Shown in pieces: positions 9,565 through 18,433 of a stretch of 40,997 nucleotides of DNA (positions are counted from its first letter, which is position 1; the number at the start of each line of letters is the position of its first letter). A program made the translations under genes and the position numbers. The stretch is taken from NCBI GenBank assembly GCA_905182715.1, contig CAJJCP010000006.1, positions 1 through 40,997 on the forward strand, given 5' to 3'. Under the pieces are notes generated by a model, which saw only the letters and a list, made by a program, of their open reading frames with translations, did no database searches and was not told the DNA's origin. The stretch is from an uncultured Candidatus Poseidoniales archaeon (lineage in GTDB: Archaea > Thermoplasmatota > Poseidoniia > Poseidoniales > Poseidoniaceae).

Positions 9565-9575
9565 GACACACCGTG
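9565..9575. repeat. Candidate left attachment-site core (11-bp direct repeat)
   Basis: GACACACCGTG occurs here and again, in the same orientation, at 18423-18433. The two copies bracket the AT-rich island, and this one lies about 150 bases before the serine recombinase start. A short common core is what serine-recombinase integration leaves behind. The flanks beyond the 11 bases are not identical. Confidence 0.45.
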
Positions 9576-9688
9576 CAGTATGGCCGACCATATAGCAACC
9601 CGAAAATCCACTTTTACTTCTGCTTCCGCAAGCAGAATGACAAGGACACACAGCCCGATTGTCAATGGAAGTCAGAAGCGCGTGGGCG

Positions 9689-9697
9689 TATATAGCA
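9689..9697 (+). promoter_or_regulatory. TATA box of the recombinase gene
   Basis: GTATATAGC is centred about 26 bases before the ATG at 9719, implying a leaderless transcript starting at that codon. This favours 9719 over the ATG at 9710. Confidence 0.5.
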
Positions 9698-9718
9698 AAC
9701 CTGTAACATATGGGAGCG

Positions 9719-10429
9719 ATGAGCAAGCAGACCCAAGCAGAACCGTGCGTTCTCTATATTCGAGTTTCAACAGCTCCGCCAAGCCAACCAAGGTGTAAGC
9801 CTCAAAGCGCAGATTGCGAGAGGAAACTTCACGCACAATATCAGAATTTTCTGCTTCCAAATACCCACATTTTCATTGATAGTGGAGTCAGTGCCAAAAC
9901 TCCACTGTGGTCAAGACCTGCTGGTAAGCAGATGAAGGCGTTCATCGCTAAGCACAAAATCAAGCAGATAATTGCTTACAGAATGGACCGATTATTCCGC
10001 AACACCCTCGATTGCCTTGCTACAGTTGAAGAATTAGAGAAACAAGGCGTAGGAATTCAGCTCTGTGAATCAGGCGGAATGCCGCTTGACTTGTCAACGG
10101 CAATGGGTAAAATGATGCTGACCATGCTTGCAGGATTCGGTGAAATGGAGCGCAACATCATCAGCGAGCGAACCACCATGGCGCTGCAACATCTCAAAGA
10201 TACAGGAAGACGTTTCACATACGACAAGTATGGATGGGATGCGGATAAGGACAACAATTTCATTGAGAATGAGGATGAGCAGTATTGGATTGAATACATC
10301 AATGCAAGATACCATGAAGACGGCATCAAAGTCTCAGAGATTGCAAGAGAACTGAACATCTGTGGCGTTCCAACCAAGCGTGGAGGAAAATGGGCTCACA
10401 AACAAGTAAGTCGGATTTTAAAAAGGTGA
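9719..10429 (+). CDS. Serine recombinase (resolvase/invertase family), with a compensated frameshift
   Basis: The catalytic N-terminal domain starts CVLYIRVST, where the Ser of YxRxS is the nucleophile. It is followed by IDSGVSAKTPLWSRPAGKQM, YRMDRLFRNTLD and GFGEMERNIISERT with conserved arginines. A short DNA-binding domain follows, ending in GVPTKRGGKWAHKQVSRIL, as in 'Recombinase'-domain integrases. Between the first motif and IDSGVSAKT the frame reads non-homologous residues, while the +1 frame at about 9778-9822 encodes RQANQGVSLKAQIAR, the expected family motif. An extra base near 9777 and a missing one near 9822 would explain this. At 237 aa it is much shorter than large serine integrases. 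It probably mobilised the island. Confidence 0.85.
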   Translation: MSKQTQAEPCVLYIRVSTAPPSQPRCKPQSADCERKLHAQYQNFLLPNTHIFIDSGVSAKTPLWSRPAGKQMKAFIAKHKIKQIIAYRMDRLFRNTLDCLATVEELEKQGVGIQLCESGGMPLDLSTAMGKMMLTMLAGFGEMERNIISERTTMALQHLKDTGRRFTYDKYGWDADKDNNFIENEDEQYWIEYINARYHEDGIKVSEIARELNICGVPTKRGGKWAHKQVSRILKR

Positions 10430-10430
10430 A

Positions 10431-11348
10431 TTACCCTATTCCACGTAATATTTTCTTTACTTTTTTGTAAATCTGCTTATGTAATTTCTTTTTCTTGTTC
10501 TTTTTTGGAACATAATCCTCTAGGTTCTTTTGTTCCCTGCTAAAGTCAAGTGTGTGGTCAACTCCTGTTTCATGCCCCCCACGATCTACAAAGTTTGGTA
10601 GTTCATGAGAAATTAGATAATCAATCGCAAAGCCAGTCCAATAATCCTGTTTGCCTTCTGAAAAAGTAGGATATTCTTCCCAACCAAAATTTGGTCTTTT
10701 TACATACAATATCCCAGACGCCTTCATGTTGTTTTTATTTTCCCATCTACCCATCTCATTGTCATACCAACCTGATTTACCTCCGTTTGAAGTATGATCC
10801 TTCTTTAGTCTAAATTTGATGCCAATTAGTGTATCAAGATGGGGTGACAAGACCTCTGCAACTTCAGGTGGGCATTTTGGTAACTTCGCGTAGTTGCTAA
10901 TTTGATACTGGAGCCTAAGATATGTACCATTTTTGAAGCTAAGTTGAAAGTTTATTGGGCGTTGAGAATACTTCTTATTTAATTCACTAGCAACTATTTT
11001 CAGTTTATCATGCCATTCTTGTGTCCAGTCAAGTCGAACAAGATCAGCATGATTGATTTCATATTCCCATGGGACCACGCTAGAATCCTCATTGGTAATC
11101 AAGTACATTTCATAACTTTCGACAATTGCCTCTATATCTCTCTTTTTTGAAAATTTACCCGGTCTTGTTAGGCTTGGAAATGCATCTGTGGATGTTTTTT
11201 CGAAGTTCCAAACAATCAACAATTTTGGTAATTTATCTGCAGTCCATCCATCTATGGATGAAAGGCGTAAACTCCTTCCAGAATTGATTTTCCGAGACTT
11301 GTTTTCCGACTTCTCGAGACGTTTTAGCCAGTTATCTCCACTAGTCAC
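10431..11348 (-). CDS. Unknown island protein paired with the methyltransferase
   Basis: The family is not recognised. The product is 305 aa, soluble, with a basic C-terminus (KKNKKKKLHKQIYKKVKKIL). Aromatic, charged motifs include KSGWYDNEMGRWENKNNMKA and RPNFGWEEYPTFSEGKQDYW. No Walker, PD-(D/E)xK, HNH or helicase motif can be named with confidence. The start lies 4 bases after the methyltransferase stop, so the two are almost certainly co-transcribed; by position it could be a restriction, specificity or immunity partner. Its end abuts the convergent recombinase. Base composition is AT-rich like the rest of the island. Confidence 0.75.
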   Translation of the reverse strand: MTSGDNWLKRLEKSENKSRKINSGRSLRLSSIDGWTADKLPKLLIVWNFEKTSTDAFPSLTRPGKFSKKRDIEAIVESYEMYLITNEDSSVVPWEYEINHADLVRLDWTQEWHDKLKIVASELNKKYSQRPINFQLSFKNGTYLRLQYQISNYAKLPKCPPEVAEVLSPHLDTLIGIKFRLKKDHTSNGGKSGWYDNEMGRWENKNNMKASGILYVKRPNFGWEEYPTFSEGKQDYWTGFAIDYLISHELPNFVDRGGHETGVDHTLDFSREQKNLEDYVPKKNKKKKLHKQIYKKVKKILRGIG

Positions 11349-11352
11349 GGTA

Positions 11353-13233
11353 TCAATCGTGGCTAGGCCTATCTCTCATATAACCTCGTAACGCTTCCAT
11401 TTTACCAAATAATGAATTGGTTTTGCATCCAAAAACCCGCTTATGCGGCGTCATATTGATGGTTTTCAGTAACTCATTATCTAACTCTTGCAACAGCTCT
11501 TGTTTGTAATTATAATTGATATTTGGAATCTGCTTACCAGCATTATGTTTGAAGACCCTACAGTCATCAACTGCATCATCCAATTTTTTACTGAATTCTG
11601 CAGCAATTTTATTCTCTAAAGCGAGTATTGGGAATGACAATATATCCTTCATTTCTACTTGGAAACCATTACCATTAATCCTCCACCACCAATAAAACAA
11701 ATTACTATTCAAAGTTGAATGAATGAGGTGATAATATTCTTCTGAAACTCGCAACTGAATTGTATTTGGCCTTTCAAGATCAAACGGTACTGCGGTTATG
11801 AAATAGCGAATGGCTTTTGGAATAAATAAAATTCTCCCACCTTCTTTTACTATGGTATCAGAGATTGTATTCTTTTGACGTTTCAATTTCCGAAACAATT
11901 CAAGATCCTGTCTGCTTTCTAACATAGGTATTGCGCCATTATGAATGTCACTTTTAGCGATTTTAATTTGATTTAGATTCTTGAACAAATCATCTCGTTC
12001 TTCTCTTCGTCTCCATCTCAAGAGGGGTGAAGTGTAAATTGAGTGTTTTTCATTACGATTCAACAGTACTATTGTTGTTCGTTGATTGATGTTCGTATTT
12101 GTGTTTGATTCAATCTTTCCTTGATCGAATAAGAAATCTGGAACACTGTCAAAAATCTGCATTCTCAAAGATGATTCATCATCAATCAAACGCTGTCTAA
12201 GAGGCAATGTTTCTTTTGATGCAACGATGCTTTGTGGAATTATGTAGCATAATAACCCATCATCATTTAATAAATTCAAGGCTAATTCAGTAAATGCGCA
12301 GTACAAATTTCGTGTACTCGCCATAGTAAAGCCTTGCAACATTTCTGGTTTCACTCGCACATACGGAGGATTACCAAACACTACGTCAAAACCACCATTC
12401 ACTTTGAAGCCAGTGATTTTGTTCCAAGAAACCTTGTCTTCGCAAGCCCCCAGTTCTAAACTATCACAATTAGCCATGTTAAATTCGATTCCTGATTGCG
12501 GACATCCAGCAGAAATCCAAAGAACTACTTTTGCTAGTTGTAAAGCCTCTCCATCGATATCTGCCGAATAAATTACTTTGCTGCAAATGTCAAACCTAAA
12601 CTTTGCTTCATCTTTCAGATTCCACTTACGAGATGCCTTCTTCCAAAGAACTCTTACTAATTGAGAGCAGAACGCACCAGACCCAATCGCTGGATCCAGC
12701 ACCTTCATTTCGAGTAGTTCTTCGAGAGAACCACAGCGAGAAACCATGGCCTTAGCAACATTTGAACACATATATTCTGTGACATCATATGGAGTGTATA
12801 TCTTCCCAGCATCTCTTCTTGCAGGATTGTGGACTAATTCAACATCATTATTTTTCCATATTGCTTGATGGCCAGAGAATAATTCTGATACACCACCTAG
12901 ATCTTCTTCAGTGAGAATCTTTCTATTGTTTTTGATATAATCCTGAACCTTTTGAGTGTAATTAGATTTTTCAACTTGAATAATTTGTTCAATACCATTT
13001 TCAAAAAGTGAGAGGGGTTGTCCTTTTTGCACTAAATGTTGGGGGATTTTTTGTCCAGTAATTGCTTCAACTGCATTCCCTAATGTGAGATTTAACGCCG
13101 AAATATATTCTCTCTGTATTGACTTTATTGATGATTTAGGGCTCGTATATGTTCTGATGTGGTCCATGATTGAATTTGCACATAGAGTTGTCAAATCTTT
13201 ACGAGCCTTGCTACGTAAAAGCTGACTGACCAT
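11353..13233 (-). CDS. N6-adenine DNA methyltransferase, Eco57I-like
   Basis: This enzyme probably methylates adenine N6 in DNA. Motif X-like TPYDVTEYM lies near residue 147, the SAM-binding motif DPAIGSGAF at about 180-188, and the catalytic NPPYVR from about 288, in the order of gamma-class Type IIG/Eco57I-like methylases. The C-terminal half (about 390-626), with paired repeats such as FYWWWRINGNGFQVEMKDIL, is the likely target-recognition region. No nuclease motif is obvious in the N-terminal 130 residues, so this may be a methylase without its own cutter. It is divergent from the PLD-helicase gene, and the unknown 305-aa gene follows in the same operon. Confidence 0.9.
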   Translation of the reverse strand: MVSQLLRSKARKDLTTLCANSIMDHIRTYTSPKSSIKSIQREYISALNLTLGNAVEAITGQKIPQHLVQKGQPLSLFENGIEQIIQVEKSNYTQKVQDYIKNNRKILTEEDLGGVSELFSGHQAIWKNNDVELVHNPARRDAGKIYTPYDVTEYMCSNVAKAMVSRCGSLEELLEMKVLDPAIGSGAFCSQLVRVLWKKASRKWNLKDEAKFRFDICSKVIYSADIDGEALQLAKVVLWISAGCPQSGIEFNMANCDSLELGACEDKVSWNKITGFKVNGGFDVVFGNPPYVRVKPEMLQGFTMASTRNLYCAFTELALNLLNDDGLLCYIIPQSIVASKETLPLRQRLIDDESSLRMQIFDSVPDFLFDQGKIESNTNTNINQRTTIVLLNRNEKHSIYTSPLLRWRRREERDDLFKNLNQIKIAKSDIHNGAIPMLESRQDLELFRKLKRQKNTISDTIVKEGGRILFIPKAIRYFITAVPFDLERPNTIQLRVSEEYYHLIHSTLNSNLFYWWWRINGNGFQVEMKDILSFPILALENKIAAEFSKKLDDAVDDCRVFKHNAGKQIPNINYNYKQELLQELDNELLKTINMTPHKRVFGCKTNSLFGKMEALRGYMRDRPSHD

Positions 13234-13401
13234 GTTACTCTCTTACTGCCAACGGTATTTAAGCTAATTCAATGCAAGAGGTTAAAATGTCTTGAGGCGT
13301 AGGTCCACTTGAACAATGGGGTGATTATTTGAGCAATATAGGTGCCTTAATTTTGGTCAAATCCGACTCTTTTTCTTTGAATTAAGATAAAATGAAAGGG
13401 T
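13234..13401. promoter_or_regulatory. Divergent promoter region of the defence cluster
   Basis: This 168-bp AT-rich space separates the methyltransferase (minus) and PLD-helicase (plus) genes. On the minus strand TTAAATAC (13255-13262) lies 22-29 bases before the methyltransferase ATG, a good TATA box for a leaderless start. On the plus strand TTAAGATA near 13382-13389 is a weaker candidate about 15-20 bases before the GTG at 13402. One shared region would let modification and the other functions be balanced. Confidence 0.5.
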
Positions 13402-15591
13402 GTGATTTTTGTGGAGAATACGGATGAACTCAGCGGAGGTGGATTATCCGACGATTTTAATGTCATGGATAGATTATATGCCCCCTGTTTAAAATGGGCG
13501 ACAAAGTATGTTCGAGATGCAGGATATTTTGGTTCTCAGGTATATCGGGCAATGGATAAAGAGATGTTGGATTTCGTGTTGAGAAACAAGGACAATCACA
13601 TCACTCTTATCATAAATGTAGATATCCAGCCTTCAGACTATGACGCAATGGTTTTAGATGATTTAGGATGTAAGGAACAAGTATTCAAAGAATTACGTGA
13701 AATGCTTGAGGACGATGTGTTGAAAGATCCGGTGAAAATGTTAGCATCGATTATTGCTGTTAAACAAATGACTGTTTACGTGAGTCTTCGTAACAGACCA
13801 TCAGGTTCCAAATCCTTAGACCATTCAAAGACTGGCTATTTTACTAATGGTGAAAAAACAGTGTACTTCGACGGCAGTTTCAACGAAACTTATCCCGGTA
13901 CAGTTCGTGGCCTAGATAAAGGAAATAAAGAGCATTTTCATATTTATGCCGATTGGGAGACTGATCCTAAGACATGGCGTCAGCATGTAGCCCCATTTAT
14001 AAAAAGATTAGATGATGATTGCAAAGGCTCGTTCCCCAAAACTTCTGCTCCGGGTACTATCATTGTTGAAATTGAAGATATTCCAAGGGATAAATTACCC
14101 ACGCTAAAGGATGAGGATTGGGATCCAGAGAACCACAAGGAACGAGCAGCCCAAAGATCTGCAAATCTTTACAAAGAGTTCGAAGATAAAATCGCTCATA
14201 AATCGAAATCTGAAGATGACACAACTGAGGTGGGGTCCGAACAAGTTCATGAAATAGCAGATTTAGTATCCAAAGAAATACTCTCTCCAACTGAACTAGT
14301 CAAAGGTCGCAAGCACCAAGGAGAAGCATTGAAAGAGTGGAAAGATGCAGGATTCAAAGGTATCTTAAAGCATGCAACTGGCAGTGGAAAGACAATCACG
14401 GCACTTTCTGCGATAGAACAGCATCTTGCGGAAAATAAGCCAGTTATACTTGTGGTGCCTGGAATACCTTTACTAAATCAGTGGGAAGATGAGATACGTG
14501 AGAAACTTGGTTTGAACATTGATTTGGCTCTTTTTGGAGATGGTCGGCAAAAGAACGAAGATTATTCACTGTTTAAAGCAATCATGAATAAAGGGCTTTC
14601 CTCCCCGACATTAATTCTATGCACAAAAGACACTTTGACGGGACAAACAGTGTCTCCGTTGTTGAAAAATACAGATGAAGAAAATCTGGCTAACATTTTA
14701 TTTGTTTTCGATGAATGTCACAAAGCCGGAGAACCTAAATGGCGTTCACTGATGAATTTAAGATTTGGAAAATGTCTTGGACTAAGTGCTACGCCTGAAC
14801 GCGCCATAGGGATTGCTGATGATGGTAGCGAAAATAAAGAAAATGGAAACGATATCATTGCGTCTTTACTCGGAGAAGTTGTTCACACCTTTGACCTCAA
14901 AGATGCCATTGATGCTGAATACCTAACAGGATTTAGATATTACCTCCATGAGGCTGAACTCACCATAGCAGAACAAAAAGAGTACGATGAAGAAAGAAAA
15001 AATATAGGTCAATGGGGGGGTCCTCCCGACCAGAACATTGCAATCCATAAAGCAAGACGAATCGTCAAAAAAGCAAAAAATAAAATCCCTATCGCCGCTC
15101 AAATTATTTCTGAGAATTTCAATTTAGGCGATTATTGGTTAATTTATTGTGCGACTACCCCCATGTTGAATGAGGTAAGGGCACAAATCGGAAAGCTAAA
15201 TCCGAATTTACAAAAAGAAATCTATGAGTTTCATTCCAAAAACAAAGACTATAGGGATAAAGATCTAGAATCTTATCGTAGACAAGGAGGCATCATGCTT
15301 GCGATGAAATGTCTCGACGAGGGAGTTAATATTCCAAATATCACACATGGAATTGTTTTGTCTTCATCAACTATCGAGCGTGAGTTCATTCAACGGCGTG
15401 GTCGAATGCTGAGGAAAGCGGAAGGAAAAGAACTAGCTCATATTTACGATGTGATTTGTTTGCCGCATTCCAGTGCGAGCCCATCATCAAGGGAAAGTAT
15501 ACTGAAACACGAAAGAAATAGGGTGGAGGAATTTGGCTCGATAAGTAAGAATTCTCTTGGAATAAAGTTGCAACTCCTTAAAATCAAATGA
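13402..15591 (+). CDS. PLD-family nuclease domain fused to SF2 helicase
   Basis: A 729-aa two-part protein. The N-terminal part has a phospholipase-D/HKD-like signature: H141-x-K143 in LDHSKTGYF and GSFN at about 158-161, which fits the HxK...GSxN half-site of PLD nucleases. After a charged linker comes an SF2 helicase: ATGSGKT (about 325-331), DECH (437-440), SATPER, and motif VI QRRGRMLR from about 664. Such fusions occur in restriction and phage-defence clusters, where the helicase translocates on DNA and the PLD domain cuts. The start codon is GTG. It is first in the plus-strand half of the cluster, followed by the small protein and DndD-like ATPase. Confidence 0.88.
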   Translation: MIFVENTDELSGGGLSDDFNVMDRLYAPCLKWATKYVRDAGYFGSQVYRAMDKEMLDFVLRNKDNHITLIINVDIQPSDYDAMVLDDLGCKEQVFKELREMLEDDVLKDPVKMLASIIAVKQMTVYVSLRNRPSGSKSLDHSKTGYFTNGEKTVYFDGSFNETYPGTVRGLDKGNKEHFHIYADWETDPKTWRQHVAPFIKRLDDDCKGSFPKTSAPGTIIVEIEDIPRDKLPTLKDEDWDPENHKERAAQRSANLYKEFEDKIAHKSKSEDDTTEVGSEQVHEIADLVSKEILSPTELVKGRKHQGEALKEWKDAGFKGILKHATGSGKTITALSAIEQHLAENKPVILVVPGIPLLNQWEDEIREKLGLNIDLALFGDGRQKNEDYSLFKAIMNKGLSSPTLILCTKDTLTGQTVSPLLKNTDEENLANILFVFDECHKAGEPKWRSLMNLRFGKCLGLSATPERAIGIADDGSENKENGNDIIASLLGEVVHTFDLKDAIDAEYLTGFRYYLHEAELTIAEQKEYDEERKNIGQWGGPPDQNIAIHKARRIVKKAKNKIPIAAQIISENFNLGDYWLIYCATTPMLNEVRAQIGKLNPNLQKEIYEFHSKNKDYRDKDLESYRRQGGIMLAMKCLDEGVNIPNITHGIVLSSSTIEREFIQRRGRMLRKAEGKELAHIYDVICLPHSSASPSSRESILKHERNRVEEFGSISKNSLGIKLQLLKIK

Positions 15592-15606
15592 TTACCATCC
15601 TCAGCA

Positions 15607-15614
15607 TTATATAC
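15607..15614 (+). promoter_or_regulatory. TATA box before the small protein and DndD-like ATPase
   Basis: TTATATAC sits 21-28 bases before ATG 15635, the right spacing for a leaderless transcript. It suggests the small protein, the ATPase and the last small gene can be transcribed separately from the helicase, and it favours 15635 over the TTG at 15620. Confidence 0.5.
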
Positions 15615-15634
15615 TGCTATTGAATGTAAATAGT

Positions 15635-15904
15635 ATGGCCCACACGGATCATGAAAAAACAAGTGGGTTAGACTTACCTCAAGTTCCATCTATCACTCCT
15701 ACCATTGATGAACTAAAAATCACTTTGAAGAAATACCGTGACAAAATCCCAGAACTTTCTGAACTAACCAACAAAAGGCTCGAAGAAATTCTTGACAAGT
15801 TGTACCAAAACTCGTATAATGCCGATGGTGGGGCAAAATTAAAAATAGATTTGGATAATTTACTCGATGAGATTGTAGATGAGATATACTCGGAGAGCGA
15901 TTAG
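15635..15904 (+). CDS. Small acidic helical protein of the defence cluster
   Basis: An 89-aa protein of unknown family. After a short polar N-terminus it is almost entirely predicted helix, with IDELKITLKKYRDKIPELSE and NKRLEEILDKLYQNSY and a strongly acidic end, LDEIVDEIYSESD. Its stop is directly followed by the ATG of the DndD-like gene, with no spacer, so translation is probably coupled. By position and size it could be an adaptor or regulator of the ATPase; nothing in the sequence shows a catalytic site. Confidence 0.7.
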   Translation: MAHTDHEKTSGLDLPQVPSITPTIDELKITLKKYRDKIPELSELTNKRLEEILDKLYQNSYNADGGAKLKIDLDNLLDEIVDEIYSESD

Positions 15905-17950
15905 ATGATTCTAGAGAAAGTATCTCTTCAAAACTGGCAACCTTATTTCGGTAAGGGGAAAGACAGGCATGTATTTGATTTCACTACCAAGAAATCGAAT
16001 TTACGTAATTCTGCCATATTATACGGTGAAAATACACAAGGCAAATCTTCATTTTGGGAGGCAATTCGATTCGCCCTTCATGGTACAGTACCGATCACTC
16101 AAAATGCAGATAAGCCACTTATCTCATTCGAACTCGATGAACGCCCATTACTAAATGTAGAAGCTTATGAAGCTGGAGATTATTTGTGTAGTGCTGAATT
16201 GGAATTCAGCCATGACGGTAAAAAATACAATCTGACGCGAAGTTTTTACGAGAAACCCACAGTCACTCTGCCTCGAAATGACTATGAGATGACCAAAACG
16301 TTAGACATTAAAATCTCCTCAACTGGAAAACCAGTAACCGATCCACAAAAGTTTATCAATGATATTATCCCTGAAAACTTGTTAAATTTCTTTATGTTTG
16401 ACGGTGAAAGGATAGAAGACTACAAACAACTCCTTTGGGATACTGAAGAAATCGTTTTGGTTGATGATATTGAGAAAATCCTTCGCCTCACAATGTTTAC
16501 CGATGGAATTAGTGGATGTTACAAAATTGCTCGTTCTGTCAGAAGAGAGATTGTGGGTTATGATGCTAATATGGTTAAAGACGCGTCCAAACTGAGGAAA
16601 ATACGGTCGAAAAAGTCTGAACTTGATTCTGCGACTTCGGATTTTGAATTGGCAAAAAGCGGTCTTGATCAAAAAATCGATGATGAGGCAAATCTAGCAG
16701 CATGGCTTAGTGCGAATGATAAAGCACAGTTAGCCAATCAGATTATTGAATCATCCACAGCTCGGATAAAGGCAATCAAAATAGAAAAAGGTATTTTGAA
16801 GAATAAGCGTTCAAAGCTGATGAATAAATCGTGGACAGCGATTATGCAGACGACCATTAAAAATCAAATTAAAGCAATTCAACAGATTATAGATAGACAA
16901 TCGGGGGAGGGTCAGAAAATCATTCATCTTGGTCAACGAAATGACCACTTACGTTCTTTAATTGCTGGTGAAAAATGTAAAAGTTGCAACACACAATTGA
17001 AGTCCCCGTTACCAAAAGATGAGACACTATATCTCTCAGAAATTGAGGCGAATCAATCTGAGATCGAATCATTAACAGGAGCCAAGGCTTCTCCAGATCC
17101 TCATGATTTAATTACCCAAGAACGTTCATTAAGGGAGTTATTATCTGGAGTAGATTTGTCTGACCTCAAAGAAATTAATACCAAAATGAATTCACTTGAC
17201 GAAGAAACACGCATAGAGAAGCAGAAATTGGACAAGTCAACCGATTCAATAAACTCAACAAAAAGAAGCGAAGTTGCAACGAAACATCAGGAACGAATCA
17301 CTTTAATTGGAGAAATTGCAGTATTGAAAGGACTTGTATCGGATATCAAGGAATATTCTGAAGAATTAGAACGAGAGCATTCTGCCCTTGTGGGATCTGG
17401 TTCCGCAGGTCTGGGGAGTAAGACCGTCGCCCACAAAAAAGCCGAATTGAAAGTAAAATTACTTACTGGGCTTGACAAATTACTCGAACACACAAAGCTC
17501 CCGTTTAGAGAAAAAATGAAAACTCAAGTTGAAAAATACGCAACTGCTGTGTTTTTGCGGTGTACAAACATGAGGGATACATATGCCGGCCTCAAAATCG
17601 ACAATACTTTCAAAATTAACATCATCAAAAAAGATGGTAAAACAGATGCAGGTAGCAAAGGACAAATGGCGCTTGTCGCCTATTCAATGCTCGATGCGTT
17701 GACTCGATGTTCTTCCATCGAGTTTCCATTTATTATTGATACACCAGGTAGATCACTCGATTCTAAAAACATGCAACGTGTATTTGACCACATCTTCGAT
17801 TCAAATCGCCAAGTCATTTGTTTGCCAACACCTGCTGAATTAGATCCTGATACTGGCGATATCCGTTACGCAGCAAACGTAGCAGTGACTTATGGTTTGA
17901 AGAATAACAATAACCGTTCTACAGCAACGGAAAGAATACGAATTACATGA
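15905..17950 (+). CDS. DndD-like SMC/Rad50-type ATPase
   Basis: This 681-aa ABC-type ATPase has the SMC/Rad50/DndD layout. The Walker A motif is GENTQGKSS (41-49), unusual in having Thr-Gln where most have Gly-x-Gly. The segment NFFMFDGERIEDY closely matches the FFFDGE(K/R)I block of DndD proteins. Two coiled-coil arms flank a zinc-hook-like CKSC near residues 358-361. The ABC signature region GSKGQMALVAYSML and Walker B FIIDTPGRSLD close the protein. DndD belongs to DNA phosphorothioation systems, but no dndA, B, C or E is present, so the resemblance is at the ATPase level only. It overlaps the next gene by ATGA. Confidence 0.88.
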   Translation: MILEKVSLQNWQPYFGKGKDRHVFDFTTKKSNLRNSAILYGENTQGKSSFWEAIRFALHGTVPITQNADKPLISFELDERPLLNVEAYEAGDYLCSAELEFSHDGKKYNLTRSFYEKPTVTLPRNDYEMTKTLDIKISSTGKPVTDPQKFINDIIPENLLNFFMFDGERIEDYKQLLWDTEEIVLVDDIEKILRLTMFTDGISGCYKIARSVRREIVGYDANMVKDASKLRKIRSKKSELDSATSDFELAKSGLDQKIDDEANLAAWLSANDKAQLANQIIESSTARIKAIKIEKGILKNKRSKLMNKSWTAIMQTTIKNQIKAIQQIIDRQSGEGQKIIHLGQRNDHLRSLIAGEKCKSCNTQLKSPLPKDETLYLSEIEANQSEIESLTGAKASPDPHDLITQERSLRELLSGVDLSDLKEINTKMNSLDEETRIEKQKLDKSTDSINSTKRSEVATKHQERITLIGEIAVLKGLVSDIKEYSEELEREHSALVGSGSAGLGSKTVAHKKAELKVKLLTGLDKLLEHTKLPFREKMKTQVEKYATAVFLRCTNMRDTYAGLKIDNTFKINIIKKDGKTDAGSKGQMALVAYSMLDALTRCSSIEFPFIIDTPGRSLDSKNMQRVFDHIFDSNRQVICLPTPAELDPDTGDIRYAANVAVTYGLKNNNNRSTATERIRIT

Positions 17951-18387
17951 ACGGTGATATTATGAGTGAAGAAACGAAAGAAAGCGGTGGAGGAACACTC
18001 GCAGTTGCAGGCCATCTTAAGCACGTGGTAAATGATCTTAAGAAGCATCTTTTTCCAGAAGACTCCTTGGCTCGAGATGTCCATTTGTTCGCAATTTCAA
18101 TTGGGATTGAAAAGAATCAAACTTTACAGTTATCTGATTGGAAGAGGGGAGATGCCAAGGCAAAGTCGAATCCAGGGTCTCACATCAACACAATTCCTGA
18201 GCTTGAAGGATTGAAGGTTTTATTACAATACCGTGGTGATCTCGAAGATGGAGTCCAACTCAATACTGCGTTAAATGAATATCTCAACGGCGGGCTGACT
18301 TGGCTGAAAAGTGAAGAGATACACAAAGGTAGTATCGACATTTTAATCAAAAAGATGCCAAAACTGTTTGGCAGTGAAAAGGAATAA
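17947..18387 (+). CDS. Small dnd/defence-associated protein, end of cluster
   Basis: The 146-aa product begins in an ATGA overlap with the ATPase stop (an alternative ATG lies at 17962), so the two are translationally coupled. HLFAISIGIEKNQTLQL and LNEYLNGGLTWLKSEE recall small proteins associated with dnd-type clusters ('FxFAAxxGyxxxxxxx' followed by 'eYaNGGlexL'), but the match is weak and made by eye. There is no catalytic motif or membrane segment. It is probably a partner of the DndD-like ATPase. It is the last gene before the right-hand repeat of the island. Confidence 0.75.
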   Translation: MNGDIMSEETKESGGGTLAVAGHLKHVVNDLKKHLFPEDSLARDVHLFAISIGIEKNQTLQLSDWKRGDAKAKSNPGSHINTIPELEGLKVLLQYRGDLEDGVQLNTALNEYLNGGLTWLKSEEIHKGSIDILIKKMPKLFGSEKE

Positions 18388-18422
18388 AACTTCCATAATG
18401 AGAATATTTGAAATAGTCTTAG

Positions 18423-18433
18423 GACACACCGTG
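18423..18433. repeat. Candidate right attachment-site core (11-bp direct repeat)
   Basis: Second copy of GACACACCGTG, matching 9565-9575 in the same orientation. It lies 35 bases after the last island gene and 31 bases before the end of the Rieske oxygenase gene. A short hydrophobic open frame from 18401 crosses this point and is probably a chance or chimeric frame. Confidence 0.45.

Follow-up and report, generated by a model that had tools for sequence, protein, structure and literature searches.

A probable antiviral PbeABCD system of methylation type carried by a serine-recombinase cassette in an uncultured Poseidoniales archaeon

In Haloterrigena jeotgali, pbeABCD together with dndCDEA lower SNJ1 plaque numbers ~10^4-fold. 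According to the available text of that study (Xiong 2019, PMC6459918), deletion of any single pbe gene impairs protection, a low level of which remains without pbeA, and protection requires the phosphorothioate mark, the viral DNA staying intact and its replication coming to a stop. In the same text, 155 of 320 PbeAC loci that lack dnd have methylases nearby; it suggests a pairing with methylases and leaves open whether the dnd-less half of PbeABCD systems is dead or reads another mark. A second study (Rakesh 2024, PMC10853773), in the part of it available to us, argues for cleavage by an HKD centre, DNA scanning by an ATPase–DndE pair, and cytosine methylases as alternative marks; it describes methylase-linked CxC/DndE systems with an MTaX1 domain, the ATPase clade being defined by a CxC hook. 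Here we describe a related locus in a 40,997-nucleotide stretch from an uncultured Candidatus Poseidoniales archaeon (assembly GCA_905182715.1, contig CAJJCP010000006.1; hereafter the window), in which an 8.9-kb island at positions 9565 to 18433 probably represents a serine-recombinase cassette with an antiviral PbeABCD system of the methylation type. The gene identities, the conservation of the whole set in a second archaeon, a methylase-linked clade of Pbe loci, and the cassette ends are documented below.

The island has a G+C content of 0.391 against 0.481 in the remainder of the window, and the six open reading frames (ORFs) of a first-pass annotation are all on the ORF list with the places and strands given there, including the NPPY motif of the methylase and the FFMFDGERI stretch of the ATPase (Table 1). 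Judged by profile matches and gene order, four of the six are PbeA, PbeB, PbeC, and PbeD of the PbeABCD/CxC-ATPase–DndE family, encoded consecutively on one strand with a 4-base overlap between pbeC and pbeD. The protein of 729 amino acids (aa) matches the PADLOC PbeA model PDLC02707 (E = 8e-135, 449 bits) and, under the cut-off, NCBIfam TIGR04095 (dnd_restrict_1; E = 4e-76), and contains a ResIII/DEAD helicase domain by Pfam. Its earlier labelling as a PLD protein agrees with the NCBIfam scan, where an antiphage PLD model aligns with the N terminus; Pfam gave no PLD match in this protein. Residues H141, K143, and G158-S159-x-N161 (HxK...GSxN) are invariant in all seven aligned PbeA proteins, and the protein shows the fusion of an HKD/PLD nuclease to an SF2 helicase that characterizes PbeA. 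The first-pass annotation had likened the island to the Hma defence system on the strength of its helicase, methylase, and ATPase composition. That identity is next to impossible and was rejected on PADLOC model scores, the HmaA model reaching only 18.8 bits (E = 7e-5) over a short helicase stretch versus the 449 bits of PbeA, with no HmaB or HmaC among the matches listed for three proteins (the best 25 of 54, 28, and 50 families).

The ATPase had been called DndD-like, and this holds in the sense of a DndD sister: its best match is PADLOC PbeC (PDLC02747, E = 3e-67), the best DndD model scoring lower (E = 3e-34) and NCBIfam TIGR03185 (DndD) matching under the cut-off (E = 8e-28), and the PbeC family profile matches Rad50 structures. 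Two of the three proteins previously left unassigned now have a place. The 89-aa protein is assigned as PbeB because of its position between pbeA and pbeC and its size, with no PADLOC family match and none significant in Pfam or NCBIfam; small ORFs are likewise placed in G112 and G525 (two genomes of the order introduced below) and in other loci. An upstream TTG at position 15620 would lengthen it from the 89 aa of the ATG start to 94 aa. The 146-aa protein is probably a PbeD/DndE cognate, a kind of protein marked in this family by two ribbon-helix-helix domains. Taken alone it matches TIGR04062 (dnd_assoc_4) weakly (E = 0.005), and 8 of 11 aligned PbeD proteins, the window's included, match that family at E ≤ 0.01; it has in common with its G112 counterpart an EYLNGGL stretch and the same gene place. 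AlphaFold, run with a 6-row alignment, gave no usable model of it (predicted local distance difference test [pLDDT] score, 38). At its C terminus the G112 PbeD (L004, 5555 to 6157) seems to bear a SAP domain in addition: among the 11 PbeD proteins a single one matched PF02037 (E = 6e-11), and by its sequence this is the one of G112. The third protein, of 305 aa, stays without a family.

The methylase matches Pfam Eco57I (PF07669, E = 3e-22). Its motif I (DPAIGSGA) precedes motif IV (NPPY), an order that is therefore N6-adenine-like, and we take the enzyme to be of the N6-adenine class on this ground. The only solved chains that it matches are adenine-specific BrxX-type methylases, over ~80 residues. 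Its resemblance in PADLOC to type II/IIG methylases, together with the ResIII-type helicase of PbeA, would fit an ordinary type IIG or type I-like restriction-modification system with the methylase providing specificity, PbeA acting as restriction subunit, and the ATPase only helping. We consider this highly improbable, since Pfam gave no match to an HsdS-type subunit or a PD-(D/E)xK model among the seven window proteins scanned, and PbeC and PbeD accompany PbeA across bacteria and archaea, methylase present or not.

The entire set recurs in an archaeon of the same order, "Euryarchaeota archaeon SI053_bin38" (JABIGF010000011.1; G112), as recombinase (cut by the contig end)–methylase–305–PbeA–PbeB–PbeC–PbeD, colinear on one strand with short gaps or overlaps. 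Identities between the two loci are 61% for the methylase, 54% for the 305-aa protein, 49% for PbeA, 28% for PbeC, and 34% for PbeD. The genes that the first-pass annotation had grouped are thus kept together outside the window. Among 309 genomes of the order, eight, counting the window's own, gave a PbeA-like match at E ≤ 1e-30; three of these were seen to hold a full pbeABCD set: G000 (the window's genome), G112, and G525, the last with the set beside a divergent C5-type methylase. The helicase belongs to an operon of another kind in G524, G485, and G457, and the PbeA-like helicase ORFs of G455 and G229 are longer.

The partner of the methylase is rare. Counting the window's own genome, the 305-aa family was found in 2 of 292 genomes sampled from the phylum and 4 of 318 of the order, its relatives being those in G112 and G304 and, in G364, a C-terminal remnant with a stop at the contig end, next to the gene that flanks the island in the window. 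The methylase family is present at E ≤ 1e-30 in 3 of 309 genomes, own genome included and G524 being the third. A scan of genome contigs with the 305-aa protein returned, among the matches listed, G112 and one false match (L016), rejected as a GAPDH-like (glyceraldehyde-3-phosphate dehydrogenase) gene by eye, and tblastn of plasmids with this protein gave no match. Scans of IMG/VR with a single PbeC protein, the 305-aa protein, the methylase, or a two-row PbeA alignment yielded no confirmed relative; a seven-row PbeA alignment found eight loci there. In two of the loci compared below, L077 and L080, the gene between the methylase and pbeA encodes MTaX1 (PF20296; E = 9e-23 and 1e-11), and the 305-aa gene of G112 occupies this same slot. 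MTaX1 was considered as the identity of the 305-aa protein and rejected: PF20296 gave no match up to E = 0.1 for the window protein and E = 1 for two relatives, and hhalign, a weak test with three sequences a side, gave Probab=0.04 (percent). By eye, an "LLIVWNF..YEMYL" stretch recalls the MTaX1 partners of L077 and L080. A PF20296 scan matched none of 272 genomes, but its controls also gave no match, and an IMG/VR scan for further MTaX1 sequences returned only three contigs, all already in the locus set.

The association of methylase and effector was examined across 34 Pbe loci from the order, the phylum, plasmids, phages, and IMG/VR. This is a non-random set, the loci having been found with the window PbeA or an alignment that has it as first row, and G525 with the nearest PADLOC PbeA model, with 17 of 98 plasmid records and 2 of 8 phage records with a match fetched. 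In a PbeA tree of 30 of these loci, omitting L026 (truncated) and the near-duplicates L078, L083, and L098, the eight loci with a methylase adjoining pbeA form a single clade with support of 100/99: the window, G112, G525, L023, L077, L079, L080, and L081. The methylase type was assigned by Pfam in the window, L023, L077, and L079, and by homology, motif, or eye in the other four. A dndC or PAPS-reductase-type gene lies in the fetched stretch of none of the eight clade members versus 10 of the 22 loci outside (dndC-like in L029, L097, L103 to L106, and L108; PAPS-reductase-type in L025, L082, and L102). A quick PbeC tree of 27 rows, made without L079, L101, and L103, whose PbeC ORFs are truncated or split, gives the same clade with seven rows (SH-like approximate likelihood ratio test [SH-aLRT], 98). 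Within it the window PbeC joins G525 (SH-aLRT, 84) and not G112, differing in this from PbeA, which hints at a poorly supported exchange inside the operon.

The zinc hook of PbeC departs here from the family definition. Located by alignment, the window hook is CKSC (residues 358 to 361), that is, CxxC and not CxC. Six of the eight clade members have a clear CxxC (window, G112, G525, L023, L079, and L081), and the other two, L077 (CECC) and L080 (CHCGTC), can be read either way; outside the clade, 20 of 22 loci have CxC and two (L082 and L084) CxxC. Because of these last two loci and the ambiguity of L077 and L080, the hook cannot serve as a strict indicator that a locus is methylase-coupled. 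An independent-pairs test of hook against methylase linkage, with L077 coded as CxxC and only L107 coded as methylase-linked outside the clade, gave p = 1 with two pairs.

With regard to sulphur modification, dndC (TIGR03183) had no match in G000, a 73%-complete genome. The absence of Dnd genes noted in the first-pass annotation stands to that extent and has to be qualified for PbeC and PbeD, which are kin of DndD and DndE. Across the order, TIGR03183 matched 1 of 145 genomes, under the family cut-off. The match is in G112, on another contig, within a dndC/dndD-like/dndE-like locus. There (L059, 1237 to 13503; contig C24), dndC-like, 64-aa, dndD-like, and dndE-like genes are divergent from a Dam-like methylase operon with a long protein resembling a PLD-helicase; all labels but that of dndC were given by eye.

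A number of observations weigh against a methylation-type system made up of all six genes. G000 is a metagenome-assembled genome from which, at 73% completeness, a dnd locus could be missing, and in G112 the dndC-like locus elsewhere in the genome could in principle supply a sulphur mark for the Pbe set to read. Searches of Pfam, NCBIfam, PADLOC, and PHROGs gave no match for the 305-aa protein, nor did Pfam for its relatives; a PDB profile search gave chance-level matches only and AlphaFold, with a two-row alignment, no usable model (pLDDT, 35). Outside the clade, a methylase lies on the pbeD side in at least 4 of 22 loci: directly after pbeD in L107, ~1 kb off in L013 (E = 5e-12), farther in L099, and as an annotated adenine methylase in L101. 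L014 has, by eye, the end of a methylase-like ORF ~6 kb away. The methylase search was made first by motif, which missed L023, L079, and L080, and then with 11 methylase protein queries, which added L013 outside the clade yet miss the annotated L101 methylase, so that absences outside the clade are not firm. In the window itself, the methylase and 305-aa genes are on the strand opposite to pbeA-D, as two divergent operons. A promoter scan of positions 13200 to 13450, made with a bacterial consensus only, found nothing.

These divergent operons would also suit two independent neighbours sharing one mobile cassette: a solitary PbeABCD, either inactive or reading a different mark, and a methylase–305 module of its own, working with other effectors or forming an orphan modification system. 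In keeping with this, the 305-aa gene of G304 (L021, 1 to 12683) follows the C-terminal tail of a methylase at the contig edge and stands tail-to-tail with a DruE1-like operon (E = 1e-175) that holds a PD-(D/E)xK protein, and in G524 the methylase family stands, without a 305-aa gene, at the end of a helicase/GHKL-type/DGQHR/GIY-YIG-type operon (labels by eye). By these cases, the methylase/305 pair need not belong to Pbe alone. However, methylase, 305-aa gene, and pbeA-D make up one colinear run in G112, the window and G112 PbeA proteins both fall inside the methylase-linked clade, and the G304 contig begins inside the methylase, so that a pbe set may lie beyond its end; we judge two independent neighbours unlikely and favour a methylase-coupled PbeABCD. 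The DruE1-like helicase of G304 is split in two genes and accompanied by three unknown proteins, as a Druantia-like variant. The G524 operon (L033, 3281 to 11610) comprises an SF2 helicase, an unknown 283-aa protein, a GHKL-type ATPase, a DGQHR protein with a DndB-like motif, a GIY-YIG-type protein with a SAP-like tail, and the methylase of the window's family, and is possibly a further defence system; similar helicases are found in L095 and L096.

The 11-bp sequence GACACACCGTG has only two exact copies in the window, against 0.02 expected by shuffling, and the outer ends of these two copies coincide with the island limits. A serine recombinase that the first-pass annotation did not mention lies inside these limits. 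It matches PF00239 (E = 3e-30) and PF07508 (E = 7e-7) by Pfam, the CcrB model far under its cut-off (E = 4e-22), and the PHROGs integrase phrog_95 (E = 7e-50). In G092, the two flanking genes are adjacent with a single repeat copy between them, an empty site. The same site in G352 (L065, 2939 to 13238) holds a related recombinase, 72% identical over the main frame, and four repeat copies. The left window repeat and the first L065 repeat are followed by identical sequence over the 49 bases printed, the L065 recombinase starting just inside; the right window repeat, like the other three of the four in L065, is preceded by TTRAAATAGNNNTAG. L065 can be read as a tandem of three cassettes whose cargo is different and defence-like, including a C5-type methylase, a Z1-domain protein, and a GHKL-type protein (Z1 by Pfam, the others by eye). 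Like G352, G354 (L061, 2633 to 6852) is a sister genome with cargo of another kind at this site: a recombinase region 97.6% identical precedes unknown genes that the end of the contig cuts off, the first of which, of 681 aa, has a marginal DndB match (E = 0.006). Residues ~20 to 40 of the window recombinase are out of frame relative to that of L065, and the gene may be damaged or carry assembly errors. Serine recombinase, direct-repeat ends, and an empty site in a relative are the features of a staphylococcal cassette chromosome (SCC)-like cassette, and the island appears to be a cassette of integrative type, its integration being what we infer from them.

Table 1. Features of the island, with positions in the window
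Feature	Position	Strand	Basis or remark
Left direct repeat GACACACCGTG	9565..9575	+	Putative attachment-site core, left cassette end
Serine recombinase, 239 aa	9710..10429	+	Resolvase + N-terminal half of Recombinase domain
305-aa protein, methylase partner	10431..11348	-	No known family
Eco57I-type N6-adenine-class DNA methylase, 626 aa	11353..13233	-	PF07669
pbeA, 729 aa, PLD-type nuclease domain + SF2 helicase	13402..15591	+	PADLOC PDLC02707
pbeB, 89 aa, small acidic helical protein	15635..15904	+	Position + size
pbeC, 681 aa, Rad50/DndD-like ABC ATPase, CxxC hook	15905..17950	+	PADLOC PDLC02747
pbeD, 146 aa, DndE-cognate/dnd_assoc_4-like	17947..18387	+	Weak TIGR04062 match
Right direct repeat GACACACCGTG	18423..18433	+	Right cassette end

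As regards mechanism, the models of PMC6459918 and PMC10853773 lead us to propose that PbeC and PbeD tell marked from unmarked DNA by the methyl group and that PbeA is the part that acts; for the window locus, each step past gene identity is one that we infer. The Eco57I-type methylase, probably assisted by the 305-aa protein, would mark adenines at a sequence motif in host DNA. PbeC and the DndE-like PbeD would bind and scan DNA for that motif, following the published DndD/CxC–DndE model, and where the mark is missing would engage PbeA. The PbeA helicase would then work on the DNA of the invader, and the single HxK...GSxN nuclease centre of the protein may nick this DNA or hold up its replication. 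PbeB is probably a small regulator that holds the effector off. The suggestion in the first-pass annotation of a defence-type island, a variant joining methylation to an ATPase/helicase/nuclease effector, is in line with this proposal. What changes, on the present gene assignments, is the reading, from an Hma-like or new system to a methylase-coupled PbeABCD, with the 305-aa protein left over by searches that assign the rest.

A wider view may be offered tentatively, although we find it doubtful: archaeal cassettes would combine the methylase–305 pair, as a transferable module for self-marking, with killing machines unrelated to one another; the 305-aa family would be a new reader or specificity factor telling the effector whether the adenine mark is there, and the mostly CxxC-hooked PbeC clade a DndD/CxC branch switched from sulphur to methyl marks. 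The cases behind this view are two genomes with PbeABCD, a third with a Druantia-type DruE operon, and a fourth whose GHKL/DGQHR helicase operon has only the methylase of the pair. The eight-member clade and the compact set in two archaea make the question of dnd-less Pbe loci directly testable with a unit of one methylase, one partner, and four effectors. The ends of the cassette hint at the way in which systems of this kind are mobilized in uncultured archaea.

In SCC-type cassettes, which carry Ccr recombinases, a serine recombinase stands at one end between direct-repeat ends, and interchangeable or tandem cargo occupies one genomic site. The window element likewise has its serine recombinase at one end, direct-repeat ends, and interchangeable or tandem cargo at one genomic site; it differs in being archaeal and in a recombinase of ~240 aa far under the Ccr cut-offs. 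On a plasmid of Aurantiacibacter atlanticus (NZ_CP015441.1; L023), a methylase immediately precedes pbeA-pbeB-pbeC-pbeD, with a CxxC hook and a PbeA of the same clade; here the methylase is of N6_N4 type (~328 aa), and no 305-aa gene lies between it and pbeA. Four of the six genes thus belong to a described system, and pairing with methylases has been described in general. As far as searched, what is new is that the 305-aa family is conserved, that two archaeal genomes hold the full set, that the loci with a methylase beside pbeA form a clade, and where the cassette ends. Our literature search, limited in coverage and without Xiong Supplementary Data 4 (methylase-linked loci), turned up no text that names a methylase of adenine type together with pbe genes, and we make no claim to a first report. 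Within the available text of PMC6459918, the Haloterrigena jeotgali DndCDEA–PbeABCD system has in common with the window PbeA, PbeB (66 aa there), PbeC, and PbeD (152 aa there); its partner is DndCDEA, in contrast to the adenine-type methylase and 305-aa protein of the window, and the window CxxC hook differs from the family CxC (as given in PMC10853773, the Haloterrigena protein itself being outside the alignment). For CxC ABC ATPase–DndE systems that include methylases and MTaX1, the available part of PMC10853773 names methylases of the cytosine C5 and N4 kinds, whereas that of the window is Eco57I-type and its 305-aa protein not detectably MTaX1; these systems resemble the window locus in the ATPase–DndE core, the HKD-SF2 protein, and the small protein, and also in a methylase replacing phosphorothioation and an extra gene on the methylase side.

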